Positions 1 through 16,981 of a stretch of DNA of 18,148 nt are shown piece by piece. Positions within the stretch are counted from its first letter, which is position 1; the number at the start of each line of letters is the position of its first letter. The notes beneath the pieces were generated by a model. The model was not told where the DNA came from. It did not search any database and saw nothing but the letters and a program-made list of their open reading frames with translations. The stretch is taken from contig JALGZO010000703.1 of assembly GCA_025774865.1 (NCBI GenBank), positions 1-18,148 on the forward strand, written 5' to 3'. A program made the position numbers and the translations under genes. This DNA comes from a bacterium (GTDB lineage: Bacteria > ARS69).

Positions 1-444
1 GCCCACGTCCGCCTCGCCCTCGAGGACCGCATCCGGAATCCGGTCGAAGTCGACGACTGCGCGCTCCACCGGAGGACAATAGATGGATAGAAGAAGATTC
101 GCCGTCGTCTGGAGCCCCGGCACGGCGACGGTCTTGCCCTCGATGGCCGCCGGGTCGATCGGCTCGCGGGTCACGAGAATGGGCCCGTACCCGCGCCCCA
201 TGCTCGCGCCCGTCCGCATCACGAAGTACTTGTCCGCCAGCGACGGGTACGCCGCGGCGCTGACGGCGGTGACCTCCAGCTCGGCCTTGGCGGCGCGGCG
301 GTTCAGTGACTCGATGTCCTCCAGCACGTGCTCCACTTCGATCCCGTCGATGCCCTCCACTTCTCTGGCCAGCGCGTAGAACATGAAAGCGTCGTCGGGA
401 TCGGGGCTGTGGCCGATGCGAAGCGTCAGTGTTTCCGGGCTCAA
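1..444 (-). CDS. mqnD: 1,4-dihydroxy-6-naphthoate synthase-like protein (MqnD / MqnA-MqnD-SBP family), 3' end outside window
   Basis: The first 148 residues are present and the frame runs off the left edge. Reading begins at a TTG codon (442-444) preceded by AGGAGA at a good distance, which decides the start; there is no suitable ATG nearby. The N-terminus reads LRIGHSPDPDDAFMFYAL, matching the family motif usually seen as SPCPNDTFIFYAL in MqnD, and is followed by VLEDIESLNRRA, a SAAAYP segment, MGRGYGPILV and a VAVPGLQTTANLLLS substrate-binding block. MqnD is a periplasmic-binding-protein-fold enzyme that acts on cyclic dehypoxanthine futalosine in the futalosine route to menaquinone. The DPDD in place of CPND places it in the broad MqnA/MqnD/SBP group, so a related substrate-binding role is possible. 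It is divergent from kynA and separated from it by about 350 nt. Confidence 0.78.
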   Translation of the reverse strand, partial: MSPETLTLRIGHSPDPDDAFMFYALAREVEGIDGIEVEHVLEDIESLNRRAAKAELEVTAVSAAAYPSLADKYFVMRTGASMGRGYGPILVTREPIDPAAIEGKTVAVPGLQTTANLLLSIYCPPVERAVVDFDRIPDAVLEGEADVG

Positions 445-797: not shown

Positions 798-1895
798 ATG
801 TCCGACACGAAGCCCGTCTATTACTCCGAGTACCTCCAGCTGGATCGTCTTCTCGGCGCGCAGACCCTGGAGAGCGAGAAGGCCGGCCAGCCAGTGCACG
901 ACGAGCACCTCTTCATCATCGTGCACCAGGCGTACGAGCTGTGGTTTCGGCAGATCCTCTGGGACGTCGACGCCGTGCTCGCTGTCTTCCGTGCGGAGCA
1001 AGTGGACGAGCGGAGCCTCGGCCACACGGTCTCGCTCCTGCACCGCGTCGTGGAGATCCAGCGGCTCCTGATCCGCCACATCGACGTCCTCGAGACGATG
1101 ACGCCGCTCGACTTCCTGGACTTCCGCGAGCATCTCACGCCGGCGTCCGGATTCCAGAGCGTGCAGTTCCGCCTCATCGAGAACAAACTCGGGATGCTGC
1201 CGGACTCTCGCATCCCGATCAACCAGGCGTCGTATCTGGCCCGCTTCCGAGACGGCGAACGCGAGCAGATCGAAGCGTCAGAGGACCAGCCGTCGCTGTT
1301 CGCGCTCGTGGACCGGTGGCTCGCTCGCACTCCGTTTCTCCAGTTCGGCGACTGGGATTTCTGGCGCGAGTACAAGCAGGCCGTAGAGAAGATGCTCGCG
1401 CGTGAGAGAGCGCTTATCCAGACGAACGAAATGCTGACGAGGCCGCATCGCGATGCGTTGCTGAAACGGTTCGGCGGCACGATGGAGACGTTCGAGGCGC
1501 TCTTCGATCGCGACCGCTACGAAGGGATGGTCGACGCCGGCGAGCACCGCCTCTCGTACGAGGCGCTCCTCGCCGCACTCCTCATCAACCTCTATCGCGA
1601 CGAGCCCATCCTGCAGCTTCCGTTCCGGTTCCTCACGACCCTCATGGACCTGGACGAGCAGTTCACGACCTGGCGCTACCGCCACGCACTCATGGCGCAT
1701 CGGATGATCGGAGCGAAGGTGGGAACCGGCGGCACGGCCGGCAGTGACTATCTGCGCGAGACGGCGGAGAAATCGAAGGTGTTCACGGACCTGTTCGCGC
1801 TCTCGACGTTCTACATTCCCCGCTCGGATCTCCCTGACCTGCCGCCCGACGTGGCCCGCCACATGAGTTTCCAGTTCACGGGCGGGAACGGTTGA
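798..1895 (+). CDS. kynA: Tryptophan 2,3-dioxygenase
   Basis: This cytoplasmic heme dioxygenase opens the indole ring of L-tryptophan to N-formylkynurenine, the first step of the kynurenine route. The 365-residue product has the family hallmarks: YYSEYLQLDRLL at 8-19, HDEHLFIIVHQAYELWF at 34-50 with the distal-pocket His43, SGFQSVQFRLIE at 117-128 with the substrate-binding Arg125, and WRYRHALMAHRMIGAKVGTGG at 292-312, containing the proximal heme ligand His296 and the Thr310 loop. It is longer than the roughly 300-residue Xanthomonas enzyme, mainly through a helical insert around 140-260. There is no Shine-Dalgarno match before the ATG. Its TGA overlaps the TTG start of the next gene by 4 nt, so the two are probably translationally coupled. 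No formamidase (kynB) lies next to it. Confidence 0.93.
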   Translation: MSDTKPVYYSEYLQLDRLLGAQTLESEKAGQPVHDEHLFIIVHQAYELWFRQILWDVDAVLAVFRAEQVDERSLGHTVSLLHRVVEIQRLLIRHIDVLETMTPLDFLDFREHLTPASGFQSVQFRLIENKLGMLPDSRIPINQASYLARFRDGEREQIEASEDQPSLFALVDRWLARTPFLQFGDWDFWREYKQAVEKMLARERALIQTNEMLTRPHRDALLKRFGGTMETFEALFDRDRYEGMVDAGEHRLSYEALLAALLINLYRDEPILQLPFRFLTTLMDLDEQFTTWRYRHALMAHRMIGAKVGTGGTAGSDYLRETAEKSKVFTDLFALSTFYIPRSDLPDLPPDVARHMSFQFTGGNG

Positions 1896-3070
1896 GCTTT
1901 CAGCGGCATTTCTCCCGGTTTCTGGCGGCCGGGCCGGACCGTCTCCACTTCGCCGCGCACAGTCATCACCTCTGGCCCGACGTCTCTTTCGAGGCGCAGC
2001 AGCAGGCCTGGCGGGACGCGGCCGAGCTCGTCGACGGGAAATGGGACCGCGTTCTCGAAGATTTGCTGCCGCGGGCGCAGGGGCACGTCGCGCGCCTGCT
2101 TCGCCTGTCGGAACCGTCGACCGTCGTCTTCGCGCCGAACACGCACGAGCTCCTGCTTCGCCTGTTGTCTTGCTTCGAGAGACGACCCGTGAGGATCCTC
2201 ACGACCGACAGCGAGTTCTACAGCTTCGAGCGTCAGGGACGGCGGTGGGAGCAAGCGGGGGAGGTGGAGATGACGCGCGTGGCGGCGGAACCGTTCGCGA
2301 CCTTCGACGCTCGCTTCCTGAAGGCCGTCGTGGACGGCGACCACGATCTCGTGTTCTGCAGCCAAGTACATTTCAACTCGGCGTTCATCTTCGAGAGATT
2401 TGCCGAGGTCGCGGCGGCGGCGCCGGCCGACGCGTGGATCGTCATCGACGGCTACCACGGCTTCATGGCCCTGCCGACCGATCTGGCGGCCATCGAGTCG
2501 CGCGTCTTCTACCTCGCGGGCGGCTACAAATACGCCATGAGCGGCGAAGGCGTCTGCTTCCTGCACTGTCCGCCCGGGTTCGGCCCGCGGCCGGTGAACA
2601 CGGGGTGGTTCGCGGGCTTCGGCGACCTGGAGCAGGGCGTGGGCGACGAGGTGCCGTACGCGCCGGACGGACGTCGCTTCTTCGGATCCACGTTCGATCC
2701 GTCGGGGCTCTACCGGTTCGTCGCGGTGATGGACCTGTGGCAGCGCGAAGGGGTGTCGGTCGAAGCGATCCATGCGTACGTCCGGGAGCTGCAAGAGGAG
2801 TTCCTCGACCGGCTCGAGGAGCTCGCGCTGCCCGAGCTGACGGTGGGTCGCCTGATCCCGGATCGCTCGTTCCGGGAGCGCGGCCACTTTCTGACGTTTC
2901 GGCTGTCCCAGGCCGGCGATGTGTACGGGGCGCTCCGCGAGGACGGGGTCGTGACGGACCACCGGGGCGACCGACTCCGCTTCGGCTTCGGGATCTATCA
3001 CGAGGAAGAGGATGTGGCGGAGCTAGGTCGCCGGCTGGCTCGCGCCCTGGGGCGCGCGGGCGCCCGGTAG
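1892..3070 (+). CDS. kynU: Kynureninase-like class V PLP-dependent enzyme
   Basis: The 392-residue protein has a fold-type I, class V aminotransferase layout. The N-terminus carries LHFAAHSHHLWPDV (about 18-31), the PLP phosphate-binding region lies around FAPNTHELL (83-91), IVIDGYHGF contains the PLP-ring Asp186 and His189, and YLAGGYKYAMSGEG holds the probable Schiff-base Lys213. By context it should cleave kynurenine to anthranilate and alanine, supplying the ligase encoded downstream. The primary sequence differs from textbook kynureninase (no LDGNSLG and no FDxAH block), so it may be a separate kynureninase branch or another PLP lyase. The TTG start at 1892 sits inside TTGA, overlapping the kynA stop, which supports co-translation with kynA. 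Its 3' end overlaps the convergent ligase gene by 48 nt. Confidence 0.65.
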   Translation: MSFQRHFSRFLAAGPDRLHFAAHSHHLWPDVSFEAQQQAWRDAAELVDGKWDRVLEDLLPRAQGHVARLLRLSEPSTVVFAPNTHELLLRLLSCFERRPVRILTTDSEFYSFERQGRRWEQAGEVEMTRVAAEPFATFDARFLKAVVDGDHDLVFCSQVHFNSAFIFERFAEVAAAAPADAWIVIDGYHGFMALPTDLAAIESRVFYLAGGYKYAMSGEGVCFLHCPPGFGPRPVNTGWFAGFGDLEQGVGDEVPYAPDGRRFFGSTFDPSGLYRFVAVMDLWQREGVSVEAIHAYVRELQEEFLDRLEELALPELTVGRLIPDRSFRERGHFLTFRLSQAGDVYGALREDGVVTDHRGDRLRFGFGIYHEEEDVAELGRRLARALGRAGAR

Positions 3071-4585
3071 GGTCTTGAGCTTGCCGCGGTCGACCTTGCC
3101 GAGGTGGGTCCGCGGCAGCGCATCCATGACGAAGACGGCCCGCGGAACCTTGTAGCGTTCGAGTCGCTCGACCACGAACGCCTTCAGCTCGTTCGGCAGG
3201 CCCTCGCCTTCGTCCTTCGCGACGACGAACCCGTACGGTTTCGTCAGCCCGTTCTCGTCGACTACGCCGACCACTGCCACCTCCTCGACGCTCGGATGCT
3301 GGAGCAGGCAGTTTTCGACCTCGCCCGGTGAGAGCCACTTGCCCGAGACCTTCAGCATGTCGTCGCCGCGACCGCAGTAGGTGAAGGTGCCGTCCGCATC
3401 GCGGCAGACCATGTCCCCCGAAACGTACCAGTCGCCGCGGAACGCCTCCTGCGTCTTTTCCATCTGCTGCCAGTACCCGATGGCCCGGGAATCGCCTCGC
3501 ACGCGCAGCCAGCCGATCTCCCCGTCGGGAAGCTCGTGACCATGCTCGTCGCAGACCTTCACGGTGAATCCGGGGACGACCTTCCCGAGAGTGCCCGGCT
3601 TCACGTCACCGGGACGATTCGAGAGGAAGATGTGCCACATTTCGGCGGTACCCAGACCATCCAGGAGCTCGGGCCCGAAGGCGCTCTTCCACCGCTCGTG
3701 AAGCTCCACGGGAAGCGCCTCGCCGGCCGACGTGGCGAGCCGGAGGCACGAGAGGTCCTGCGCCGATGCGCTCTCGTGCGAGACCATCTTGTTGATCATG
3801 GTCGGCACGTTCACCAGGATCGTCGGGCGGAACTTCGTGATCTTTTCGAAGAGACACTCCGGCGTGCAACGCTCGGGAAAGAGGGCGGCGGTGGCGCCGA
3901 CCGCGAACGGAAAGAGCAGGTTCGATCCGGTCGCGTATCCGAAGAAGAGCTTCGGTACGGACAACGTGACGTCGCTCTCGCGGTAGCCCAGCACGCCCTT
4001 CGCGTAGAGCTCGGTGGTGTTCGCGAACGAACGGTGCGTCTGGACGACGGCCTTCGGGCGTCCGGTCGTGCCGCCGGAGAAGAGCCAGATCGCGGCGTCG
4101 TCGCGGTGCGAAGGGAAACAGTCCAGCTCGTCAGGTGCGGCGGCGAGTCTCTTCTCGAACGCATCTGAGCCGACGGTGAAGGTCTCCTTGAGATGCTGCG
4201 CGTCCGAAGCCGCCGTGTCGAACGCGACCCGCGTGCTCTCGTGCACGAACGCTACCGTCGCGCGCGTGTATTCGAAGAAATACTCGATCGCGTCGGGCTT
4301 CAGCTCCGGATTCACCATGACGACGACGGCGCCGATCTTCAGAGTTCCAAACAGTGCCGCGACGAATTCCGGGCCGTCCGGCAAAGCGATCAGGACGCGC
4401 TGCTCGGGCTGTACGCCCGCCTCCAGCAACAGGTTCCCGAAGCGGTTTGCGAGCCGCTGGACTTCGTGGTAGGAGAGGGTGCGGTCCTCCGTGAGGAGCG
4501 CCGCCTTCTCGCCCTTCCCTTCGCGGATGCGCGCGTCGAGAAACCAATCCGTGACGTTGAGCAGTTCCGGCGGCGTGAACGTCAT
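3023..4585 (-). CDS. Benzoate-CoA ligase family enzyme, probably 2-aminobenzoate (anthranilate)-CoA ligase
   Basis: This acyl-adenylate-forming enzyme (520 residues from the chosen ATG at 4585) would activate anthranilate with ATP and CoA to 2-aminobenzoyl-CoA. Visible ANL motifs are the P-loop FSGGTTGRPK at 169-178, GLGTAEMWHIF (A5), WYVSGDM (A7), the hinge YCGRGDDMLKVSGKWLSPGEVE (A8) and the C-terminal PRTHLGKVDR with the catalytic Lys497. The FFGYATGSNLLFPFAVGAT block is typical of benzoate-CoA ligases. Two upstream in-frame starts (4597, 4633) exist, but 4585 is preferred: the protein then begins MTFTPPELLNVTDWFLD like its relatives, and a near-consensus promoter places the transcript start on that ATG. 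It is divergent from the catabolic operon at 4627. Specificity for anthranilate over benzoate or salicylate is inferred from KynA/KynU and the downstream fusion enzyme. Confidence 0.86.
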   Translation of the reverse strand: MTFTPPELLNVTDWFLDARIREGKGEKAALLTEDRTLSYHEVQRLANRFGNLLLEAGVQPEQRVLIALPDGPEFVAALFGTLKIGAVVVMVNPELKPDAIEYFFEYTRATVAFVHESTRVAFDTAASDAQHLKETFTVGSDAFEKRLAAAPDELDCFPSHRDDAAIWLFSGGTTGRPKAVVQTHRSFANTTELYAKGVLGYRESDVTLSVPKLFFGYATGSNLLFPFAVGATAALFPERCTPECLFEKITKFRPTILVNVPTMINKMVSHESASAQDLSCLRLATSAGEALPVELHERWKSAFGPELLDGLGTAEMWHIFLSNRPGDVKPGTLGKVVPGFTVKVCDEHGHELPDGEIGWLRVRGDSRAIGYWQQMEKTQEAFRGDWYVSGDMVCRDADGTFTYCGRGDDMLKVSGKWLSPGEVENCLLQHPSVEEVAVVGVVDENGLTKPYGFVVAKDEGEGLPNELKAFVVERLERYKVPRAVFVMDALPRTHLGKVDRGKLKTLPGARAPQGASQPAT

Positions 4586-4592
4586 GGCGCGA

Positions 4593-4621
4593 ATCATACG
4601 GACGAGCCGGGAGACGGTCAA
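4593..4621 (-). promoter_or_regulatory. Sigma70-type promoter for the CoA ligase gene, leaderless architecture
   Basis: On the minus strand TTGACC (4616-4621) and TATGAT (4593-4598) are separated by exactly 17 nt; each matches consensus at 5 of 6 positions. Only 7 nt (4586-4592) separate the -10 box from the ATG at 4585, so transcription would start at or next to the A of the start codon. No Shine-Dalgarno sequence precedes that ATG. The element lies inside the 41-nt gap between the divergent ligase and creatininase-family genes, so a regulator bound here could control both directions. Confidence 0.7.
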
Positions 4622-4626
4622 CGACC

Positions 4627-5385
4627 ATGGCAACGCGCTACTTTTCGTCCATGACTTGGAAAGAGATCGACGATCTCGACAAAGATAACGTCGTCGTGGT
4701 GCTTCCCGTCGGCGCGGTCGAGGCGCACGGTCCGCACCTGCCCTTGGCGACCGACGGGATCATCTCCGAGTCGATGGCGCACGCGGGCGCGAAGAAACTC
4801 TCCGCCCGCGGACTCACGGTACTCATTTTGCCGGCGCTCTCGTACACGGCGGCGGGTTTCGCGGCGGCCTTCCCGGGCACGATCTCGCTGCCGCCCGATC
4901 ATGTGACCCGGACGATCGTCGGGATCGCACGCAGCGTGGCGGACGCTGGTTTCCGACTCCTCGCGATCGCGAACTCGCACCTCGATCCCGAGAATCTTTC
5001 GTCACTCCGGGAAGCGGAGGAGACGTTTCGAAGCGACGACCGTCTGCGAATCGTCTTCCCCGATCTCACCCGGAAGCCTTGGGCGTCCCGCCTCTCCGAC
5101 GAATTCCGGAGTGGCGCCTGCCACGCTGGACGGTTCGAGACGTCGATCGTCCTGGCCGTGAGCCCGGAGCTCGTCCGCGAGGAGGTGCGGCGCGGGTTGC
5201 CTTCGAATCCGTCGTCACTCTCCGTCGCGATCCGGGAGGGAAAAACCACGTTCGAGGAGGCCGGCGGCCCCGACGCCTACTTCGGGCATCCCGCCGAGGC
5301 CAGCGCGGTGGAGGGGGAGGCGACGATCGAGACGCTGGGTTCCATCCTGGAGGATGCCGTGATGGCGGCGAGGGAGACGGCATGA
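4627..5385 (+). CDS. Creatininase-family metal-dependent amidohydrolase; candidate N-formylkynurenine formamidase
   Basis: The 252-residue protein belongs to the creatininase (creatinine amidohydrolase) family. LPVGAVEAHGPHLPLATD at 26-43 supplies the metal ligands Glu32, His34 and Asp43, and CHAGRFETS at 165-173 supplies His166 and Glu171. The usual NGHGGN block is replaced by NSHLDPEN (116-123), keeping His118 but losing the glycine pair, so the substrate is probably not creatinine. Members of the family cleave cyclic amides and formamides; archaeal ArfB is a formamide hydrolase. Because the cluster encodes KynA and a KynU-like enzyme but no KynB-type formamidase, hydrolysis of N-formylkynurenine is an attractive role. 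Action on a ring-derived CoA intermediate is the alternative. It is the first gene of a six-gene operon; its TGA overlaps the next ATG. Confidence 0.85.
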   Translation: MATRYFSSMTWKEIDDLDKDNVVVVLPVGAVEAHGPHLPLATDGIISESMAHAGAKKLSARGLTVLILPALSYTAAGFAAAFPGTISLPPDHVTRTIVGIARSVADAGFRLLAIANSHLDPENLSSLREAEETFRSDDRLRIVFPDLTRKPWASRLSDEFRSGACHAGRFETSIVLAVSPELVREEVRRGLPSNPSSLSVAIREGKTTFEEAGGPDAYFGHPAEASAVEGEATIETLGSILEDAVMAARETA

Positions 5386-6164
5386 CCGAGCGACTCTCCG
5401 GCAAGGCCGCCGTCGTGACGGGCGGGGGCCGCGGGATCGGCGAGGGCGTCGCGGTGGCGCTGGCCCGCGCGGGCGCCGTCGTCTGTGTGTGCGCGCGCAC
5501 CGAAGCCGAGGTCCGGCGGGTCGCCGGCGAGATTCGGGCGGGGGGCGGTCGCGCGTGGGCGCTCCCCTGCGACGTCACCGATCCCGAGAGCGTACGGGGA
5601 ATGGTGGAGGCCGCCAGCGAGCGGCTCCGCCGGATCGACATCCTGGTGAACAACGCCGGCGCGGCATCGTCGGCGCCGCTCGCGAAAATCACGCTCGAAG
5701 AGTGGAACCGGATCATGGCCGTCAACGCGACGGGAACGTTTCTCTGTACGCAGGCCGCACTCCCCGGCATGGTGGAGCGCGGCTGGGGACGGGTGGTGAA
5801 CGTGGCGTCGGTGGCCGCGCGGACGGGCGCGCGTTACGTGGCGGCCTACACCGCCGCGAAGCACGCGGTGCTCGGCTTCACCCGGTCGGTCGCGGCGGAA
5901 GTAGCGGCCTCGGGAGTGACGGTCAACGCCGTCTGTCCCGGTTACGTCGACACGGAGATGACGGTGGAGTCCATAGACCGGATCGTCGAGAAGACCGGGA
6001 TGTCACGCGACGAGGCCACCACGGCTCTCCTCCAGACGACGCCTCAGAAGCGCCTCATCGAAGTGGCAGAAGTGGCTTACTCGGTGGTCTCACTCTGCGA
6101 CGCCGACGCGAAGGGAGTGAATGGGCAGGCGCTCGTCCTCGACGGGGGGAAGCTGCTCGCATGA
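5382..6164 (+). CDS. Short-chain dehydrogenase/reductase (SDR), classical type
   Basis: The 260-residue oxidoreductase has a Rossmann nucleotide site TGGGRGIG at 13-20, CDVTD near 64-68 for the adenine ring, NNAG at 90-93, and the catalytic triad Ser143, Tyr156 and Lys160 in a YTAAK motif, followed by the PGYVDTEM loop. The length is normal for classical SDRs. Its ATG (5382) overlaps the upstream TGA, with AGGGAG six bases before it. In this operon it would oxidise or reduce a hydroxy/keto group of an alicyclic or ring-opened CoA intermediate derived from 2-aminobenzoyl-CoA, taking the place of a 3-hydroxyacyl-CoA dehydrogenase, which the cluster lacks. The precise substrate cannot be read from the sequence. 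Confidence 0.9.
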   Translation: MTERLSGKAAVVTGGGRGIGEGVAVALARAGAVVCVCARTEAEVRRVAGEIRAGGGRAWALPCDVTDPESVRGMVEAASERLRRIDILVNNAGAASSAPLAKITLEEWNRIMAVNATGTFLCTQAALPGMVERGWGRVVNVASVAARTGARYVAAYTAAKHAVLGFTRSVAAEVAASGVTVNAVCPGYVDTEMTVESIDRIVEKTGMSRDEATTALLQTTPQKRLIEVAEVAYSVVSLCDADAKGVNGQALVLDGGKLLA

Positions 6165-6568
6165 CGCACACGATCATCAACCCGGTCGAGCTCGGTGCAC
6201 CGCGCGGTTGGAGCAACGGGATGCTCGCACCCCGAGGCGGACGGCTTCTCTTCGTGGCGGGGCAGGACGCGACCGATGACGCCGGCAATCTCCCGGAAGA
6301 TTTCGTCCGTCAGTTCGGAGCGGCGCTCGAGAAGATCCTGGCCGTCGTCCGGGAAGCCGACGGTGGCCCCCAGGACGTCGCGCGGCTAACGATCTACGTT
6401 ACCGATCTCGCCGCCTACCTCGAGAGTCGGAAAAGTCTCGGCGAAGCGTACCGCGAGCTCATGGGGCGCCACTTCCCGGCGATGGCCCTCGTGGAGGTGA
6501 AGGGGCTCGTCGAACCGGGTGCGATGGTCGAGATCGAAGCGACGGCCGTCGTGGGAGGAGATGGATGA
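6161..6568 (+). CDS. RidA/YjgF/YER057c-family protein lacking the substrate-binding arginine; probable enamine/imine deaminase
   Basis: The 135-residue protein has the Rid fold signature: LLFVAGQDATDDAGNLPEDFVRQ, then ARLTIYVTDLAAYLES, then HFPAMALVEVKGL and GAMVEIEATAVV. In canonical RidA the segment reads PARSxVEV, and its Arg binds the carboxylate of amino-acid-derived imines. Here the position is Met108, so the protein belongs to the Arg-less Rid subfamilies. A CoA-thioester substrate has no free carboxylate, which fits an enzyme hydrolysing the 2-amino-enoyl-CoA (enamine) made by the downstream fusion enzyme and releasing ammonia. The start codon overlaps the SDR stop (ATGA), and its own stop overlaps the next start in the same way. 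Rid family membership is clear; the proposed reaction is inference. Confidence 0.85.
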   Translation: MTHTIINPVELGAPRGWSNGMLAPRGGRLLFVAGQDATDDAGNLPEDFVRQFGAALEKILAVVREADGGPQDVARLTIYVTDLAAYLESRKSLGEAYRELMGRHFPAMALVEVKGLVEPGAMVEIEATAVVGGDG

Positions 6569-7359
6569 CGATCGCCCCTCGATCGTTTCTCTACGAGCAC
6601 GATCCCGGCACTTCGGTGGCCACGATCACGCTGAACCGTCCGGATCGCCTGAACGCCCTCACCTTCGAAGTGTACGAAGAGCTCCGGGACTGCTTCGGCG
6701 CTCTCGACACCGAGCCCGACGTTCGCGCCGTGATGTTGACCGGGGCGGGCCGGGCGTTCTGCTCGGGCGGCGACGTCGAGGACATCATCGGAGCCTTGTT
6801 CGACAAGGACTACGAAGGGCTTCTCGACTTCACGCGATTGACCTGCGATCTCGTGCTCTCGATCCGGCAGTGTCGGCGGCCGGTCGTCGCGGCCCTGAAC
6901 GGCACCGTCGCGGGCGCGGGCGCGGTGATCGCGACCGCCTGCGACTTCCGGATCGCGGCCGAGTCGGCGAAGATCGCGTTCCTCTTCACGAAGGTCGGCC
7001 TGTCGGGCGCGGACATGGGCGCTTCCTGGCTCTTGCCGCGGATCGTCGGCATGGGGCACGCGACGCACCTCTTGATGACCGGCGACTTCATCGACGCGGC
7101 GGAAGCGCACCGGATCGGCCTCTACCACCGGGTGGTGGAAGACGCCGCCGCCGAGGGCAGAGCCCTCGCCGAGAAGCTCGCCACCGGTCCGTCGTTCGCG
7201 CTCGAGGTCACGAAGGATGCGCTCAACCGAGAGGCGGGGATGCACATGCTCGCCGCGTTCGAGCACGAGGGTGAGATTCAGGCCACCTGCATGCAGAACC
7301 CGAACTTTCGCGAGGCGTTCGAGGCCTTCAAGGAGAAGCGGCCCCCGCGGTTCGTGTGA
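6565..7359 (+). CDS. Crotonase-fold enzyme (enoyl-CoA hydratase family) without the catalytic glutamate pair; possible ring-opening hydrolase
   Basis: The 264-residue crotonase has ITLNRPDRLNAL near 22-33, the oxyanion-hole segments RAFCSGGDVEDI and ALNGTVAGAGAV, and the C-terminal segment FREAFEAFKEKRPPRF. The two glutamates of classical hydratases are missing: the GQPE region reads AFLFTKVG (138-145), and the second site reads ATHLLMTG with His168. Instead it has LSGADMG with Asp150, and the KVG block resembles MenB/BadI-type crotonases, which make or hydrolyse C-C bonds in rings. A BadI-like hydrolytic opening of a 2-oxocyclohexane-carbonyl-CoA derivative would fit the pathway. The gene is preceded by GGAGGAG five bases before its ATG and overlaps the RidA stop. 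Assignment to the fold is firm; the reaction is inferred. Confidence 0.88.
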   Translation: MTIAPRSFLYEHDPGTSVATITLNRPDRLNALTFEVYEELRDCFGALDTEPDVRAVMLTGAGRAFCSGGDVEDIIGALFDKDYEGLLDFTRLTCDLVLSIRQCRRPVVAALNGTVAGAGAVIATACDFRIAAESAKIAFLFTKVGLSGADMGASWLLPRIVGMGHATHLLMTGDFIDAAEAHRIGLYHRVVEDAAAEGRALAEKLATGPSFALEVTKDALNREAGMHMLAAFEHEGEIQATCMQNPNFREAFEAFKEKRPPRFV

Positions 7360-7372
7360 GGGTCCCAGACGA

Positions 7373-8545
7373 ATGTCCGAGACGCAGACCGTTCGTGCCT
7401 TCCTCGACGACTCCCACCTCGAGCTCGCTCCGAGGATCGCCGAGTTCGCGGCGCGCGAGATCGCACCCGAGCCGGTCCCCGAGGATGACGCGTCGGCCCG
7501 GGTCCGCGCGCGCGAAGTGCTCGAGCTCCTCGGCGAGAGCGACTGGTTCCGGTTCATCCCGCAGCAGGACCTTCGCGCCTGCTGCCTGATCCGAGAAGCC
7601 CTCGCGGCTGCGTCACCGCTGGCCGATGCCGTCTTTGCGCTGCAGGCGCTGGGGTCCACGCCCATCGTCATCGCCGGCTCCGCCGAGCTCCGCGAAACCT
7701 GGCTCGAGCGCGCGGTCGCCGGCACCTCCATGGCCGCCTTCGCGATGACGGAAGCCGGCGCCGGCTCGGACGTCGCGGCCATCACCACCACCGCCCGCCG
7801 GGACGGCGACCACTACGTCCTCGACGGGACCAAGTCCTTCATTTCGAACGCGGGAATCGCGGACTTCTACACGGTGTTCGCCTCGACCGATCCCTCGGCC
7901 GGTAGCAAGGGCATTTCTTGCTTCGTCGTGGCCGCCGACACCCCGGGGCTCGTCTTCGACGGCCCGCAGATTCTCTCGGCCCCGCATCCGCTCGGCGAGA
8001 TCTCGTTCGACGGGTGCCGCGTCCCGGCCAGTTGCCGGCTCGGGGACGAGGGTGGAGGATTCAAGCTCGGGCTCGCCACTCTGGACCGGCTGCGGGCCAC
8101 GGTGGGCGCGGCCGCCTGCGGCATGGGGACTCGGGCGCTGGACGAAGCGCTCGCGCACGCGACGACTCGACGCCAATTCGGGAAGCCGCTCGCCGAGTTC
8201 CAGCTCGTGCAGCAGAAGCTCGCACGCATGGCCACCGATCTGACGGCAGCCCGGCTTCTCGTCTACCGGGCCGCCTGGGAGAAGGACGGGGGCGCCGAGC
8301 GAGTGACCGTGGAAGCCGCGATGGCGAAAGCGTTCGCGACGGAGGCGGCACAGCGGATCGTCGACGACGCGGTGCAGATCCTCGGGGGGCGCGGCGTCCT
8401 GGCCGAGCACCCCGTGGACCACCTCTACCGGGCGGTCCGGGCGCTTCGTATCTACGAGGGGACGACGGAGATCCAGCACCTCGTCATCGCGGGTCAGCTG
8501 ACCGCGGCGGCGGAGGTCCCCGCGGCGGCCGGCACCGAGAGCTAG
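7373..8545 (+). CDS. Acyl-CoA dehydrogenase
   Basis: The 390-residue flavoprotein has the standard ACAD layout: an N-terminal helical domain, the FAD/substrate motif [16 protein letters not shown] near 119-134, the beta-domain [14 protein letters not shown], and the C-terminal motifs [36 protein letters not shown] and IYEGTTEIQ. Glu362 in YEGT is at the position of the medium-chain enzyme's catalytic base, so it should be an active alpha,beta-dehydrogenase passing electrons to ETF. The start at 7373 follows the crotonase stop by 13 nt with GAGGG upstream; the longer open frame that begins earlier overlaps the crotonase gene and is not family-like. In context it would oxidise a saturated ring or ring-opened dicarboxylyl-CoA intermediate. 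Confidence 0.93.
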
Positions 8546-8554
8546 GGGGCGTCC

Positions 8555-10816
8555 GTGAGGATCGTCAGCATCGGCGGTGGCCCCGCCGGGCTCTACTTCG
8601 GGATCTTGATGAAGAAGGCCGATCCGTCGGCCGAGGTCACGATCCTCGAGCGCAACCGTTCGTCGGACACCTTCGGTTTCGGCGTCGTCTTCTCGGACGC
8701 GACCCTCGAGAACCTGCGCGCCGCCGACCCCGAGTCGTTCGGTGAGATCACGCGGCGCTTCCACCACTGGGACGACATCGACGTCCACTACGAAGGGGAG
8801 CTCCTCCGCTCCACCGGTCACGGGTTCTGCGGGCTGTCGCGCAAGACGCTCCTCGACGTTCTCGGGGCGCGCTGTGAGAAGCTCGGCGTCGACGTGCGGT
8901 ACGAGGTGGAGGTCGACGACGAAGCGCCCTACCGCGACGCCGACCTCGTCCTCGCCGCCGACGGAGTCAACAGCGCGATCCGCGAGCGCCACGCCGACCA
9001 CTTCAGGCCGACTACCGACATACGCCCCAACAAGTTCGTGTGGCTCGGCACGACTCGTCCGTTCCCTGCCTTCACGTTCTACTTCAAGGAGACCGAACAC
9101 GGACTCTGGCGGATCCACTGCTACCAGTACGAGAAGGATGCCTCGACCTTCATCGTCGAGACGACCGACGAGGCCTTCCGCCGAGCCGGGCTGGCGGAGG
9201 AGGACGAGGAAGCCACGATCGCGTTTTGCGAGGATCTCTGCCGCGACGAGCTGGACGGACACCGCCTCCTCAAGAACCGCTCCCTTTGGCGCAACTTCCC
9301 CACGATCCGAAACGAGCATTGGTCGTGGGAGAACCTCGTCCTCATGGGCGACGCCGCCCATACCGCCCACTTCTCGGTAGGATCGGGAACGAAGCTCGCG
9401 ATGGAGGACGCGATCACGCTCGTGGAGGCGCTCGGTCAAAACGGCGACGTGGCGGCGGCCGTGCGACGGTACGAGGAAGTACGCCGTCCCGCGGTCGAGA
9501 GCCTGCAGCGCGCGGCGCAGGCGAGCCTCCAGTGGTTCGAGTCGACGGAACGTTACATGCGTTCCGAGCCCATCCAGTTCGGCTTCAACCTGCTCACCCG
9601 GAGCCTTCGTATCACGCACGAGGATCTCAAGATCCGCGATCCGCGGTACATCGAGTCCGTCGACGGGTGGTTCGCAGCCCGAGCGGCCGGGCAGAGCGGC
9701 CTCCCGGTGCCGGCCCGCGCCGGCGAACCCGTACCCCCGCCCATGTTCACGCCGTTCCGGCTCCGGGACCTGCTCCTCACCAACCGCGTCGTCGTCTCCG
9801 CCATGTGTCAGTACCTGGCCGAGAACGGCACTCCGAACGATTGGCACTTCGTCCACCTCGGGAGCCGTGCCGTCGGCGGAGCCGGCCTCGTCTTCACGGA
9901 GATGACGGATGTCTCGGCGGAAGCCAGGATCACGCCCGGCTGCGCCGGGATCTATGCGCCCGAGCACGTCGCGGGGTGGAAGCGCACCGTCGACTTCGTG
10001 CACGAGTACACCGAGGCGAAGATCGGTCTCCAGCTCGCGCACGCCGGGCGCAAGGGATCCACGAAGCTTCCGTGGGCGGGTATCGACGAGCCGCTCGAGG
10101 AAGGGGGCTGGCCGATCCTCGCCGCCTCGCCGATCCCGTGGTTCTCGCACAGCCCGATCCCGAAGGAGATGGACCGCGCCGACATGGACACCGTCCGCGA
10201 CGATTTCGTCCTCTCTACCGAGCTGGCGGAGGCCGCGGGCTTCGACATCCTGGAGCTCCACTTCGCCCACGGGTATCTGCTCTCGAGCTTCATCTCCCCG
10301 CTCACGAACGAGCGGACCGACGAGTACGGCGGTTCCCTCGAGAATCGGATGCGCTTCCCGCTCGAGGTCCTCGACGCGGTTCGCGCGGCCTGGCCGGAAC
10401 GGAAGCCGATCTCGGTCCGCATTTCCGCCGTGGACTGGGCGCCGGCCGGCATGGATGCCGGTGACGCCGTCGACGTGGCGAGACTCTTGAAGGAGCACCA
10501 GTGCGACATCGTCGACGTGTCGGCCGGGCAGACGGTGCCGTATGCGAAGCCGGCCTACGGCCGACAGTTCCAGACCCCGTTCTCCGATCGGATCCGTCAG
10601 GAGGTCGACATTCCGACGATCGCGGTCGGCAACATCTCGTCCTTCATGGACGTGAACACGATACTCGCGGCGGGTCGCGCGGATCTCTGCGCGCTCGCCC
10701 GCGCGCACTTGTGGGATCCGTACTGGATCCGACACGCGGCTCACGAGCAGGGCTGGAAGCTCCCCTGGCCCGACCCTTACTCCGTCCTGGAGAACTACAC
10801 GCCGCGGTTCAAGTAG
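8555..10816 (+). CDS. 2-aminobenzoyl-CoA monooxygenase/reductase-type fusion (FAD aromatic hydroxylase + old yellow enzyme)
   Basis: This 753-residue bifunctional flavoprotein has two parts. Residues 1 to about 380 are a class A flavin monooxygenase with [12 protein letters not shown] at the N-terminus and [22 protein letters not shown] (Asp266) contacting FAD. Residues from about 397 ([17 protein letters not shown]) are an old-yellow-enzyme FMN reductase with [10 protein letters not shown] (His496), [16 protein letters not shown] (His572) and [12 protein letters not shown]. This is the architecture of Azoarcus evansii 2-aminobenzoyl-CoA monooxygenase/reductase and of proteins annotated as salicylyl-CoA 5-hydroxylase/oxidoreductase. 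It hydroxylates the ring at C5, then reduces it to 2-amino-5-oxocyclohex-1-enecarbonyl-CoA. The GTG start at 8555 follows a GGGGG ribosome site, 9 nt after the previous stop. Kynurenine genes nearby favour anthranilate over salicylate. It is the last gene of the operon. Confidence 0.9.
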
Positions 10817-11116: not shown

Positions 11117-11803
11117 GTGGACAAGATCCAGACGTTTGAGCAGTTCCTGACGAACCAGAGCGTCCAGGTGGACGTCCCGTCGTTCATCGTCAACACGTTG
11201 CTCGCGGCGTTCCTCTCGTTCCTGCTCGGTCGCCTCTACGTGAAGTTCGGCCAGTCGCTTTCCAATCGTCGGCTCTTCGCCAAGAACTTCATGCTGATCG
11301 CGGTGACGACGATGTTCATCATCACCGTCGTGAAGTCGTCCTTGGCCCTCTCGCTGGGTTTGGTCGGCGCTCTCTCGATCGTACGATTTCGGGCGGCCAT
11401 CAAGGAGCCGGAGGAGCTCGCGTATCTCTTCCTCAACATCGCCATCGGCCTGGGGCTCGGCGCCGATCAGAGGATCATCACACTCGTAGCGTTCGGGCTC
11501 GTGGGTTCTCTGATCGTGTCGCGGGGATTCCTGCAGCAGCGGGAGGAAGACGGCAACCTGTACCTGTCGATCGACAGTCACAATCCGGAGAAGGTGGAGC
11601 TCCGGGACATCGTGAGCACGCTGAAGCAGCATTGCTCGGGCGTCACGATGAAGCGCTTCCACGAAACGAAGGAGGCCCTCGAGGCGACGTTCCTCGTGGA
11701 GTTCGACGACTTCAATCAGCTCAACGAAACGCGATCGGGGCTGCAGGGCCTCAACGAGCACCTCACGATCCGCTTTCTCGATCTCAAGGGTGTCCACGAA
11801 TGA
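11117..11803 (+). CDS. DUF4956-family integral membrane protein
   Basis: The 228-residue protein has four or five hydrophobic segments: about 20-42, 56-72, 74-90, and 102-135, which is long enough for two. They surround the family motif SLGLVGALSIVRFRAAIKEPEEL, a conserved membrane-embedded stretch with charged residues. The C-terminal 80 residues are soluble (NLYLSIDSHNPEKVELRDIV onward), with alternating strands and helices that could form an ACT- or ferredoxin-like domain. Translation starts at GTG with AGGGGA seven bases upstream. The biochemical role of DUF4956 is unknown to me. It is repeatedly found beside CotH and VTC-domain genes, as here, and the ATGA overlap with the CotH gene supports a shared membrane complex. 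The family call rests on the SIVRFR motif. Confidence 0.85.
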   Translation: MDKIQTFEQFLTNQSVQVDVPSFIVNTLLAAFLSFLLGRLYVKFGQSLSNRRLFAKNFMLIAVTTMFIITVVKSSLALSLGLVGALSIVRFRAAIKEPEELAYLFLNIAIGLGLGADQRIITLVAFGLVGSLIVSRGFLQQREEDGNLYLSIDSHNPEKVELRDIVSTLKQHCSGVTMKRFHETKEALEATFLVEFDDFNQLNETRSGLQGLNEHLTIRFLDLKGVHE

Positions 11804-14406
11804 TCGTCAAGAGCGCGAGCCGCAAGCGGCCGTCGAGGCTCGCCGAGTTGCTTCACGGAAAGGTGAGGCGAGCGCTCTTGGTGTCGGGGCTCATCGTGGT
11901 GGCGCTCCCCGCCATCACTCTCGGCAGCATCTACTACGGCATGCTTCTGCACGAGCAGAAGGTCGCGGACTCGTTCGCGACCTTCTTCGAAAACGCAGTA
12001 CAGACGAAGCTCGAGCTCGGACCGAACTTCGTCCGGGGGCAGCTGGCGAACCCGGAACGGCTGACGATCGACGTCAAGCACGAGGACTTCCAGAAGCTGG
12101 CGTACAAGCGGGACGTGGCGATCGAGACCGGAGTCCTGCTCACGAGTCCCGACGACTACGTGCCGGCGAAGATCCGCCACCGGGACAAGACCTACAAGAT
12201 TCACCTGCGGCTCAAAGGAGACTGGATCGACCACCTCGAGGGCGACAAGTGGTCCTTCCGGGTGAAGGTCAGGGACAACGAGACGCTGTTCGGGATGAAC
12301 AAGTTGTCGCTGCACCATCCGAGAACCCGGAACTTCATTCACGAGTGGATCTTTCACGAGGCCTTGCAGCGGGAGGGAATCGTCGCGCCGCGCTATTACT
12401 TCGTGGACGTCGTTCTCAACGGGAAGCCGCTCGGCATCTACGCGCTCGAGGAACACTTCGACAAGAGGCTGGTCGAGAACAACCGGCACCGCGAGGGCCC
12501 GATTCTCAAGCTCAGCGAGGATGCGCTCTGGCCCGACCTCGCCCTCTTCGGCAAGGGCTCGGCCGAGAGCCCCACGGGTCTGCAGGCGGAGGAGATCGCG
12601 CCCGTCGAGGCGTTCCGGTTGAGCAAGATCAAGCGGGACCCCATGCTCACGGCGGAGTTCCGGAAGGCCATCGCCCTCCTGGACGGCTTCCGGAGCGGGG
12701 CGGTCTCGGTCCGGCAGGCTTTCGACGACGACAAGCTGGCGGCCTACCTCGCGCTCTGTGACGTCATGGGCGCGAAGCACGCCGCGATCTGGTTCAACCT
12801 GCGGTTCTTCTACAACCCCGTGACTTCCCGTCTGGAGCCCGTGGGGTTCGACGGAAACGCGGGCGGCGAGCTCGAGCAACTCATCGGCTCGAATCGGTCC
12901 CAGGCCAACGAGTCCGTGAAGTTCAAGGACCGGTGCTTCTCCGATCCCGAGTTCTTCGGGAGGTACGTCGCGGCGCTCGAGCGCCTCTCCGACGAACGCT
13001 GGCTGGATTCCCTGCTCGACGAAATCGACGCGGGGCTCACGAGGAACCTGGGCATCCTCTATCGAGAGTTTCCGTACTACCACTTCAGCACGCGCGTGTA
13101 CCGGGACAACCAGGCGAAGATCCGCGCGGTCATCGATCCGACCCGGGCCGTTCACGCGTACTACACGAAGCACACGGTCGATTCGGTGACCCTGGAGCTC
13201 GGCAACGTCCAACCGCTCCCGGTGGAGATTCTCGGGCTCGAGACGGTGGTGGGCGTCCCGGAGTGGCTGCCGGAGCCCCTGGTCTTGGCTTCGTACGTTC
13301 CGTCGAAGTTGCCGAGCTACGAGCACGTCGAGTTCGGGATTCCGGGCGAGGCCGGCTGGCAAGCCGGTCTGGAGGACTCTCTGAAGGTCCGGTACCGCAT
13401 CCTCGGGACCGAGGCCAGCCGCTCCGAGGAAGTCTTCTCGTGGTCCCGGCCGGATCCGGCCATCCTCGAGGGGGACGTGACCCGCCGGGAGCCCAACGCC
13501 GATACGTTTCCCTTCCTGCTGGTCGACGACCTCGCGGCCACGATCCTCGTGAAGCCGGGCTCGTGGACCGTGGGCCGGGACCTCGTGATTCCCGGGGGCT
13601 ACACGGTTCTGGCGGGGCCGGCGACGGAGCTCGACATCGTCAACGGCGCGACGATCCTGTCGCGCTCGCCGCTCAACCTCCGGGGAACGAAAGAGGCACC
13701 GATCGTCTTCCGGTCGAGCGACTCGACCGCGCAAGGCGTGGTGGTTCTCGAGGCGGAGCGGATGTCGGTACTCACGCACGTCCGGTTTCTGAATCTCGGG
13801 AGTCCCGAGGTGGACGGCTGGAACGTCACCGGCGCGGTAACGTTCTACGAGTCACCGCTCGAGTCGGTCGATTGCGAGTTCGGAATGAACCGCTGCGAGG
13901 ACGCGCTGAACGTGATCCGGACGAGCTTCGACATCGACGGAGCGATCTTCCGCGACACTCACTCCGACGCCTTCGACAGCGACTTCTGCTCCGGCACGAT
14001 CCGGCGGTCGTCGTTCGTCCGGTGCGGCAACGACGGTATCGACATCTCCGGAAGCACGGTGACGGTGGAAAACGTCTCCGTGGACGGGGCCGGCGACAAG
14101 GCGGTCAGCGCCGGCGAGTCCAGCCGGATGACGATGAGCGAGATTCGCATCTCGAAGGCGAACATCGGCGTCGCAAGCAAAGATCAATGCGAGGTCGACG
14201 GTACGGACGTCGTCATCCGCGACACGAAGATCGGTCTGACCGCGTTCCGGAAGAAATCGGAGTTCGGGCCGGCGTCCATGAAGGTCCGGCAGCTCGCCCT
14301 CCACGGCGTCGAAACACCGAGTCTCGTCGAGACGGGCTCGAGCGTCGAAGTCGACGGAAAGGCGCTCACGGAGAATGGCGCGGACCTGAAGGGATTGCTC
14401 TACTGA
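11800..14406 (+). CDS. Membrane-anchored CotH-kinase-domain protein with C-terminal parallel beta-helix
   Basis: The protein has 868 residues. A single N-terminal membrane anchor (about 24-47) follows a basic tail, implying an extracytoplasmic body. Residues about 95-450 form a CotH domain with RLKGDWIDHLEGDKWSFRVKV near 137-157, NGKPLGIYALEEHFDKRL near 207-224, and the active-site-type GFDGN containing Asp351 and Asn353. CotH of Bacillus is an atypical protein kinase that phosphorylates spore-coat proteins. From about 578 the sequence changes to short repeating strands (for example CGNDGIDISGSTVTVENVSV), the pattern of a right-handed parallel beta-helix as in pectate-lyase-like surface proteins. 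The middle segment (about 450-575) may be a lamin-tail-like or linker region. It overlaps DUF4956 by 4 nt and the VTC gene by 1 nt. Substrates are unknown. Confidence 0.85.
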   Translation: MIVKSASRKRPSRLAELLHGKVRRALLVSGLIVVALPAITLGSIYYGMLLHEQKVADSFATFFENAVQTKLELGPNFVRGQLANPERLTIDVKHEDFQKLAYKRDVAIETGVLLTSPDDYVPAKIRHRDKTYKIHLRLKGDWIDHLEGDKWSFRVKVRDNETLFGMNKLSLHHPRTRNFIHEWIFHEALQREGIVAPRYYFVDVVLNGKPLGIYALEEHFDKRLVENNRHREGPILKLSEDALWPDLALFGKGSAESPTGLQAEEIAPVEAFRLSKIKRDPMLTAEFRKAIALLDGFRSGAVSVRQAFDDDKLAAYLALCDVMGAKHAAIWFNLRFFYNPVTSRLEPVGFDGNAGGELEQLIGSNRSQANESVKFKDRCFSDPEFFGRYVAALERLSDERWLDSLLDEIDAGLTRNLGILYREFPYYHFSTRVYRDNQAKIRAVIDPTRAVHAYYTKHTVDSVTLELGNVQPLPVEILGLETVVGVPEWLPEPLVLASYVPSKLPSYEHVEFGIPGEAGWQAGLEDSLKVRYRILGTEASRSEEVFSWSRPDPAILEGDVTRREPNADTFPFLLVDDLAATILVKPGSWTVGRDLVIPGGYTVLAGPATELDIVNGATILSRSPLNLRGTKEAPIVFRSSDSTAQGVVVLEAERMSVLTHVRFLNLGSPEVDGWNVTGAVTFYESPLESVDCEFGMNRCEDALNVIRTSFDIDGAIFRDTHSDAFDSDFCSGTIRRSSFVRCGNDGIDISGSTVTVENVSVDGAGDKAVSAGESSRMTMSEIRISKANIGVASKDQCEVDGTDVVIRDTKIGLTAFRKKSEFGPASMKVRQLALHGVETPSLVETGSSVEVDGKALTENGADLKGLLY

Positions 14407-15107
14407 TGAGCCAGCCCGTGACATCCGCGGCGAACCGCTACCGCTACGAGCGCAAGTTCACGACGAGCAGGCTCGGCCGCGACGAAGTCGAGCACATGAT
14501 CCGGATGAATCCGGCGATGTTCTCGGAGATCTTTCGGGAGCGCTGGGTGAACAACATCTACTTCGACTCGATGAGCATGACCAATCTCCACGCGAACCTT
14601 TCGGGTGTGCAGCATCGGGTCAAGTGCAGGATTCGCTGGTACGGAGATCTCTTCGGCCAGGTCGAGAAGCCCGTCTTCGAGGTGAAGAAGAAGAACGGAC
14701 TCATGGGAGCCAAGGACTCCTTCCCTCTACCCCCTTTCGACCTGGACGAGGATCTCCGGCCGACGGACCTCGTGGACGTGCTGGCGGCCTCCGATATTCC
14801 TGACTGGCTGCGAGCGCGATGCCTGTTCCTGGAGCCGGCACTTCTGAACCGATACCGGCGGAAGTATTTCCGCTCCGCCGACGACGACTACCGGATCACG
14901 GTCGACACCGATCTGGAATACTACCGGATCGACCGGTGTGCGAACCGATTCCGGGAGAGCATGACCGACGAGTGGATGGTCATCGTCGAGCTGAAGTACG
15001 CCCGGGGAAGGGACGCCAAGGCGGACCGGATCACGAGCAGGTTTCCTCTCCGTCTGGCGCGCATCTCGAAGTACGTCGACGGCGTGGGGCGGCTCCACCG
15101 CTTCTAG
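14406..15107 (+). CDS. VTC-domain protein (polyphosphate polymerase-like, triphosphate tunnel fold)
   Basis: The 233-residue protein has the strand-by-strand signature of the VTC catalytic domain: YRYERKF near 12-18, VNNIYFDS, HRVKCRIRWYG, PVFEVKKKNG, LNRYRRKYFRS, YRITVDTDLEYY, WMVIVELKYA and ISKYVDGV. The alternating basic and acidic residues (RVKCRIR, EVKKK, ELK) line the phosphate tunnel in yeast Vtc4, which makes inorganic polyphosphate from ATP. The length fits a stand-alone domain without SPX or membrane segments; the partner DUF4956 protein could provide the membrane part. The ATG lies in TGATG, overlapping the CotH stop by one base. Its TAG shares a CTAG tetranucleotide with the stop of the convergent molybdoenzyme gene. 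Whether it makes polyphosphate or another phospho-product is untested. Confidence 0.87.
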   Translation: MSQPVTSAANRYRYERKFTTSRLGRDEVEHMIRMNPAMFSEIFRERWVNNIYFDSMSMTNLHANLSGVQHRVKCRIRWYGDLFGQVEKPVFEVKKKNGLMGAKDSFPLPPFDLDEDLRPTDLVDVLAASDIPDWLRARCLFLEPALLNRYRRKYFRSADDDYRITVDTDLEYYRIDRCANRFRESMTDEWMVIVELKYARGRDAKADRITSRFPLRLARISKYVDGVGRLHRF

Positions 15108-16981
15108 GACGACTTCTCCAGGCTCGCCTCCACCGACTTGAACGCCGGAGTCTTCGAGCGCGGATCCAACCGACGCGGCACGATCGCGTTCGCCTCGGGG
15201 TAGTACATCGCGAGGTTTCCGGGGGGAAGCTCCACGAGCGCGACGGACACCTCGAGCTTTCCGGCTTCCGTGGACACGACGACCCGATCACCCTCCGAGA
15301 CCCCGAGACGGCGCGCGTCGGTCTCGGCCATCATGACGACGTCACGGCGCCCGTTGCCGCGATAGAGGTCCTCCTCCTCGTACACGACCGTGTTGAACTG
15401 GCCTTCCGAGCGAAGGGTCATCAGGCGGAACTCCGCCGAAGGTTCCGCGGGGAGCGGCGTCACGTGAAAGTGCGCCTGGCCGGTCGGGGTCGCGAAGCCC
15501 CGCTCGTGGAACGTGCGGCCCTCGATGTGAAACTCCTCGCGCTGCGCGTCGACGCCGCCGATCGGCCCAAAGCCCGGCACGACGGCGGCGATGCCCTCGC
15601 GGAGCCTCCGGTGGGAGCGCAGCGCCTTCCAGTCGAAGCGTCCCTCGGGTAGGACTCGTTCGGCGATCGACGCGATCACGTCCACCTCGGAGCGCATCTC
15701 GCCCGGCGTGGCCGGGTGACCACCGTCGGAGCGGCGCACGTAGTTGAACATCGATTCCTGGGTCGTGGTCTGCGGCTCCTCGTCGCGGGCGAGGACCGGG
15801 AGAATGAGGGTCGTGCGGCCGCGTCCGTGCAGGTGCCCTTCGTTGAGCTTCGTGGTGAGCGAAACGGTGAACGGGATCGAACGAAGTGCCGCGGCCGCCC
15901 AGGCACGATCCGGATTGCTCGCGAAGAGATTGCCGCCGAGCAAGACGCTCGCGCGGATGCGGCCGTCGTCGGCAGCGGTCATCGAGGCGTACGTGTCCTG
16001 GCCGGGTTCGGCGGGGACCCGGATGTCGTAGAGCTCCTCCAGCTTCGCGGCGAACGCACGCTTCAGGGCCGGCCTCATGCCGACGGAGCCGACTCCCTGC
16101 ACGTTGGAGTGACCGCGGATCGGGAGGAGGCCCGCTCCCGGCCGCCCAAGCCAGCCGCGGGCGAGCGCGAGGTTGGACAGCGCCAGGACGTTGTCCACCC
16201 CGTGGGCGTGGTGCGTGAGCCCCATTGCCCAGCTCAGGACGCCGCGCTGCGCGCCGGCGAGATACCCGACCGCCTTGTCGACGCAGCGCTGCGGCACGCC
16301 GGAGCGGCGCGCGAGCTCGTCCCAGGGAGCCGCTTTCACGTCCGATAACACGTCGCCCCAGCCGGTCGTGGCGGCGTCGACGAACTCGCGGTCGACGGCG
16401 CCGGCCTCGACCAACCCCTTGAGCAGCGCCTTGAACAGCGCGACGTCCCCCCCGACGTGTGGCTGCAGGTAGAGATCGCAGACGTCGGATCCGAAGAGCA
16501 AGCTCCGCCAGTCCGATGGCAACCGGAATCGGAGGAGCCCGAGCTCCCGCAGCGGATTGACGATGATCACCTTGCCGCCGCGACGCCGGAGCTCGATCAG
16601 CTGGCTGATGAGCCGCGGGTGGTTGCTCGCGGGGTTCGCACCGGCCACGAGCACGAGGTCCGTCTTCTCGAGATCCTCGAGCACGATGGAAGCCGTGCCG
16701 GAGCCGTACACCGAAGACAGCGCGACGCTGGACGCCGCGTGGCAGTAATACGAGCAGTTGTGGATGTTCGGCGATCCGTAAGCGCGCGCGACGAGCTGCA
16801 ACAGGAACGCCGCCTCATTGCTGGAGCGGCCGGAGGCGTAGAAGAAGACCTCGGCGGGCGGGGCATCGCGGAGACCCAGGCCCACCCGGTCGATTGCCTC
16901 GTCCCAGCCGACGCGGCGAAAGTGCGTGTCATCTTCGTCGGCCAGAATGGGGAACGCGAGGCGTCCGAGCTGCTCGAGCTC
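15104..16981 (-). pseudogene. FdhF/YdeP-family molybdopterin oxidoreductase, N-terminally truncated
   Basis: About 626 codons of uninterrupted similarity to YdeP-type formate-dehydrogenase-like molybdoenzymes are present: WDEAIDRVG, FFYASGRSSNEAAFLLQL, NCSYYCHAASSVAL (the Cys of YYCH aligning with the molybdenum-ligand site), GANPASNHPR, IVNPLRELGL, GHSNVQGVGSVG, and the C-terminal dinucleotide-binding domain ending SKTPAFKSVEASLE. Homology starts abruptly at LELEQLGRL near 16981. Full-length relatives have about 100 more residues there, including a Cys motif of the CPGCAWPD type. No ATG, GTG or TTG occurs in frame between 16981 and about 17070; the first possible start is GTG at 16885, inside the conserved region. 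I therefore call it a 5'-deleted gene, although a shortened protein from 16885 (593 residues) cannot be excluded. It is convergent with the VTC gene. Confidence 0.75.

Follow-up and report, generated by a model that had tools for sequence, protein, structure and literature searches.

A creatininase-family protein as candidate N-formylkynurenine formamidase in a conserved gene cluster for tryptophan degradation

The bacterial contig described here carries a cluster of genes that very likely takes tryptophan to intermediates of beta-oxidation, and the distribution of one cluster member among genomes suggests that this creatininase-family protein is probably the N-formylkynurenine formamidase of the route, in place of KynB. 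It is this candidate formamidase gene that is the new point. The wider proposition also seems rather likely, namely that a creatininase-like subfamily, encoded in a conserved operon of at least five mostly uncultured phyla, stands in for KynB as an N-formylkynurenine formamidase that had gone unrecognised.

In the proposed route, KynA would convert tryptophan to N-formylkynurenine, the creatininase-family metalloenzyme would take off the formyl group, and a divergent kynureninase would then yield anthranilate and alanine. A ligase would activate the anthranilate to 2-aminobenzoyl-CoA, which a fused monooxygenase/reductase would hydroxylate and reduce to 2-amino-5-oxocyclohex-1-enecarbonyl-CoA; deamination, ring opening and shortening would fall to a RidA-family protein, a crotonase, a short-chain dehydrogenase/reductase (SDR) and an acyl-CoA dehydrogenase (ACAD). 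We infer the order of the steps that come after the fusion enzyme, as we do the substrates of the window's ligase and fusion, whose reactions have been established elsewhere for homologues.

Genes of the cluster

The window, by which is meant the whole stretch of DNA analysed, is an entire contig of 18,148 bases (C707) from a 4.7 Mb MAG that is 92.65% complete with 8.3% contamination and belongs to a phylum represented in the collection by five genomes of one family. Every gene named in the initial annotation was found where it had been placed, as judged by profile matches: kynA, a kynureninase-like gene, a ligase gene and a six-gene operon ending in the fusion. That annotation had counted the six operon genes and had given no role to the creatininase gene or to N-formylkynurenine hydrolysis.

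The cluster opens with kynA (798 to 1895, plus strand), the only copy in the genome, which encodes a tryptophan 2,3-dioxygenase of 365 amino acids, an animal-type length, with a PF03301 score of 363 bits against a cut-off of 34.9 and a match to PDB tryptophan 2,3-dioxygenase at 1e-103. It is overlapped by 4 bases by a gene with a TTG start (1892 to 3070, plus strand), the product of which is accepted as a divergent kynureninase, that is, a fold-type I PLP enzyme nearest to kynureninase by profile and by fold. The evidence from the single sequence is weak (1qz9 at 5.6e-6; KYNU_C at 30 bits), and a six-sequence profile ranked the Pseudomonas enzyme 1qz9 (4.7e-20) and human kynureninase (5e-8) ahead of the cysteine desulfurases. 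The structural model is of moderate quality (pLDDT 77), and its best fold match in the PDB is again 1qz9, at rank 1. Residues K213, D186, H189, W239, T267 and R363 are invariant among its relatives and coincide in the alignment with active-site positions of kynureninase, with K213 being what we take to be the PLP lysine and R363 presumably the substrate arginine. The NCBIfam kynureninase model was matched neither by the window protein at 0.001 nor by its relatives at 0.01, which marks this as a divergent branch of kynureninases.

These two genes are oriented towards a minus-strand gene (3023 to 4585) for an aryl-CoA ligase of the benzoate-CoA-ligase family (TIGR02262, 493 bits against a cut-off of 375), probably a 2-aminobenzoate-CoA ligase, whose relatives in the PDB include both benzoate-CoA ligase and anthranilate-CoA ligase (4wv3). 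Beyond it lie six collinear plus-strand genes (4627 to 10816), spaced by 4-base overlaps or by gaps of 9–13 bases. The first encodes the creatininase-family metallohydrolase of 252 amino acids (4627 to 5385; PF02633, 182 bits against 31), and the next an SDR (5382 to 6164; PF00106) with 49% identity to the SDR that neighbours the fusion in Paracoccus. These are followed by a RidA-family protein (6161 to 6568; PF01042), which is probably an enamine/imine hydrolase and is 45% identical to the RidA of the Paracoccus cluster, and by a crotonase-superfamily protein (6565 to 7359; NF006107 over its cut-off; 49% to the crotonase of that cluster), a candidate for the ring-opening hydrolase. An ACAD (7373 to 8545; PF00441, PF02770 and PF02771; 46% to its Paracoccus counterpart) precedes the last gene (8555 to 10816), which encodes a flavoprotein monooxygenase fused to an OYE-type reductase. 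The latter matches NF006101 over its full length with 1143 bits against a cut-off of 1078, is 53–55% identical to Arthrobacter and alphaproteobacterial members, and is by this profile a member of the fusion family, a predicted 2-aminobenzoyl-CoA monooxygenase/reductase.

The rest of the window holds several other genes. A gene start at 1–440 (minus strand), which by a motif we take to be characteristic resembles the menaquinone enzyme MqnD, stands beside the kyn genes, and the same neighbour is found beside kynU in a sister genome (L021:4490-5506), at a spot that lacks kynA. After the cluster come consecutive genes for DUF4956, CotH/beta-helix and VTC-domain proteins (11117–15107) and a minus-strand molybdopterin oxidoreductase (15107–16885; PF00384 and PF01568) that seems to lack its N-terminal part.

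Recurrence of the cluster and its known relatives

A sister genome carries the ligase, creatininase, SDR, RidA, crotonase, ACAD and fusion genes collinearly at 56–71% identity, and two contigs of a second sister carry the stretches from kynureninase to RidA and from ACAD to the fusion. A scan for the creatininase-family protein with one genome per species gave 429 relatives, the best 80 loci of which were examined and came from Gemmatimonadota, Planctomycetota, Acidobacteriota, Myxococcota and Eisenbacteria. Most of these 80 had a ligase gene facing creatininase-SDR-RidA-crotonase-ACAD-fusion, often with kynA-kynU after it, and the ligase adjoined the creatininase-headed operon in most loci. 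The recurrence of the same order in the sister and in dozens of other genomes means that the arrangement is not due to chance. Moreover, the kynA and kynU partners of the cluster belong to several distinct lineages, indicating that the association formed more than once. The initial annotation had made its reading depend on recurrent linkage to kynA and kynU homologues, and the gene-neighbourhood check found such linkage, to the fusion and lower module, in many genomes.

Some loci depart from this plan. In three genomes, from Planctomycetota and one deltaproteobacterium (G010:C39, G041:C108, which is L087, and G027:C213), the monooxygenase part, about 400 amino acids long, lacks the OYE part, which shows that the two are not fused everywhere. 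Three loci (L132:7520-8098, L149:3261-3893 and L041:10799-12247) have another kind of OYE-family protein, some 480–600 amino acids long, next to kynA or the creatininase gene.

The lower module was already known. Counterparts of all five of its genes (fusion, SDR, crotonase, ACAD and RidA; 45–53% identity) lie together in an iad-type module on plasmid 1 of Paracoccus denitrificans, in the order fusion, then SDR, MarR, crotonase, ACAD, thioesterase, RidA and ligase, and in other Gemmatimonadota, too, the SDR, crotonase, ACAD, RidA and ligase genes adjoin the fusion. Thus, of the interpretation first offered, the recurrent tryptophan-to-anthraniloyl-CoA cluster stood, but the novelty of the candidates for the lower steps did not, as the Paracoccus plasmid and other Gemmatimonadota already join them. 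Unlike the window, the Paracoccus module is without kyn genes and without the creatininase gene, has the additional MarR, thioesterase and ABC transporter genes, and has a ligase only 35% identical.

The aerobic 2-aminobenzoate pathway of Azoarcus evansii reportedly goes back to Altenschmidt and Fuchs and to Schuhle et al. in 2001. It consists of a CoA ligase, a fused monooxygenase/reductase and then beta-oxidation-type enzymes, as does the window cluster (review PMC4539516); the window differs in being joined to kynA, kynU and the creatininase-family gene and in drawing its ligase from the benzoate-CoA-ligase branch. Arthrobacter sp. Rue61a degrades anthranilate through CoA esters only, and the esters of C7H7NO3 and C7H8O4 acids accumulate (PMC3534580). 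Its fusion enzyme, of the type linked to anthranilate, is 53% identical to that of the window, but the strain is quinaldine-fed, has no kyn genes at the same locus and has a ligase of 35% identity. The two accumulating esters fit the hydrolysis of an enamine to a diketone, and the order of steps first suggested for the window, enamine hydrolysis and ring opening by the crotonase, is chemically reasonable and would agree with the CoA ester of the C7H8O4 acid (PMC3534580).

The creatininase-family protein and the formamidase step

The formyl group must be removed from N-formylkynurenine before kynureninase can act. Neither PF04199 nor TIGR03035 was among the matches listed for the nine cluster proteins, and the genome's sole PF04199 protein reaches 53 bits where the KynB cut-off is 223. 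This protein has Asn and Tyr at the positions of the KynB zinc ligands His50 and His54, and with two ligands missing it was set aside as the formamidase. It is possible that a gene has been lost elsewhere in this incomplete and partly contaminated MAG. TIGR03035 is itself broad as a marker for KynB: one iad-locus protein that carries the annotation kynurenine formamidase seems to be an amidase of broad specificity (PMC12633357).

The structural model of the creatininase-family protein (AlphaFold; pLDDT 96.9) has the creatininase fold, with Z about 25, at 22–26% identity to the solved members of the family. E32, H34, D43 and H118 are present in all 65 orthologues, and residue 120 is Asp or Glu in all 65; these are the counterparts of E34, H36, D45, H120 and E122 of creatininase, which we take to be its metal ligands, so that all five metal positions are kept. 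H166 and E171 are also invariant among the 65. The position of W174, presumably the tryptophan that stacks on creatinine, is Ser/Thr162 in 64 of the 65 orthologues, and by this mark the window protein would not be a true creatininase. The orthologues have in addition a GACHAG motif, invariant or nearly so, and a conserved TRKPW motif, both new relative to creatininase. The family has a precedent in BrbF, a protein annotated as creatininase that is a formamide hydrolase (PMC9478397). KynB is likewise a two-metal hydrolase and would catalyse the same reaction, but it is of a different fold and family and is absent from the creatininase clusters (PMC4243253). In the collection of papers searched, nothing relevant tied creatininase to formylkynurenine or to arylformamidase.

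The distribution of the two proteins was followed in 46 creatininase-bearing genomes and, separately, in 298 sampled Gemmatimonadota genomes (from a transcribed table), mostly incomplete MAGs. Of the former, 44 have kynA and none has a KynB over the curated cut-off, with a clear KynB relative (at least 134 bits) in seven. The fusion enzymes of the 298 Gemmatimonadota fall into two score classes, type I (n = 69) and type II (n = 73). The creatininase gene is present in 72 of the 298 genomes, in 70 together with kynA and in 68 together with a type II fusion. Accordingly, 68 of the 73 type II genomes have it, and two of the other five, when read, both proved to have truncated contigs; the type I genomes have the creatininase gene in none of 69 and KynB in 51. 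Among the genomes with both kynA and a fusion, the creatininase gene occurs alone in 56 and KynB alone in 42, while 10 have the two together and 21 have neither (Fisher p 1.7e-9, a value that ignores shared ancestry). The 21 imply another formamidase, or one that went undetected.

In the 298 Gemmatimonadota no creatininase gene lay within 10 kb of a KynB gene, and the two were never in the same cluster. The creatininase gene lies no more than 10 kb from kynA in 47 of 69 genomes; in 26 genomes KynB is no further than 2 kb from kynA, and 14 of these have a type I fusion, suggesting that KynB serves the same route there. Shared ancestry was addressed through the kynA tree alone, which left out row L157 and has at least two changes of partner between creatininase and KynB on well-supported branches. 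In the omitted row (genome G151), a frame that by eye resembles kynurenine 3-monooxygenase overlaps the kynA-kynB region or lies next to it, and a number of KynB-type clusters may therefore act in the 3-hydroxykynurenine route. One genome, G006, has two copies of kynA, one adjoining KynB and the other in a creatininase cluster.

The main rival, which is unlikely although it is the best of the alternatives, places the creatininase-family protein in the lower pathway, where it would open the ring of the diketone or release the acid from its CoA ester, replacing the thioesterase of other loci. The gene is not adjacent to kynA and is the first of the lower-pathway operon in the window as in most loci, and it follows the type II fusion just as closely as it follows kynA, so that distribution alone cannot place it upstream; fusion-free genomes with a creatininase gene number only four, too few to separate the two ties. 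Several of the type I and Paracoccus loci include a thioesterase, against only two creatininase loci, and IolN, of the same Pfam family (PF02633), acts on a cyclic ketone. Against such a role, the type I loci that were read across the cluster have the fusion, crotonase and ACAD in every one, the SDR, RidA and ligase in nearly all and the creatininase gene in none, and the iad-type plasmids likewise have a homologous module without it, which argues that the lower pathway does not need this protein. About half of the type I loci are also without a thioesterase, and the plasmid search found no creatininase orthologue, the best of the distant family members having about 34% identity. Furthermore, 58 of the 70 genomes with creatininase and kynA would then be without a known formamidase. 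An upstream role is favoured because the lower module exists without the creatininase gene and most genomes that have the gene are otherwise without a recognisable formamidase.

It is improbable that the protein has an unrelated role in peptide or amide turnover and is retained by linkage. The gene does stand alone, apart from the pathway genes, in some Acidobacteriota and Myxococcota, but these same genomes keep kynA and the fusion elsewhere, which suggests that it tracks the pathway even where physical linkage is lost. That the cluster degrades salicylate or another benzoate via salicylyl-CoA, with the kyn genes as passengers, is very improbable: the NCBIfam name of the fusion ("bifunctional salicylyl-CoA 5-hydroxylase/oxidoreductase") and the family of the ligase would suit such substrates, but kynA accompanies the creatininase gene almost throughout, kynureninase adjoins kynA or the ligase in many clusters and in several distinct lineages of both, and RidA, which an amino substrate would call for, is always present. 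Tryptophan catabolism with a creatininase-family formamidase is considered the best explanation overall, and a fairly probable one.

Significance for the cluster-bearing phyla

One conserved, collinear gene set spans the way from tryptophan to a dearomatised CoA ester, in phyla whose carbon use has mostly been guessed. Tryptophan degradation via anthraniloyl-CoA monooxygenase/reductase is a route that GapMind, a standard pathway predictor, leaves out, and its authors give insufficient knowledge as the reason (PMC9007349). If the formamidase proposal is true, the gap at the second step would be filled in many genomes and a large clade of genes that currently carry the creatininase annotation would gain a function, with their products adding a third protein fold for this reaction beside those of KynB and the animal enzymes.
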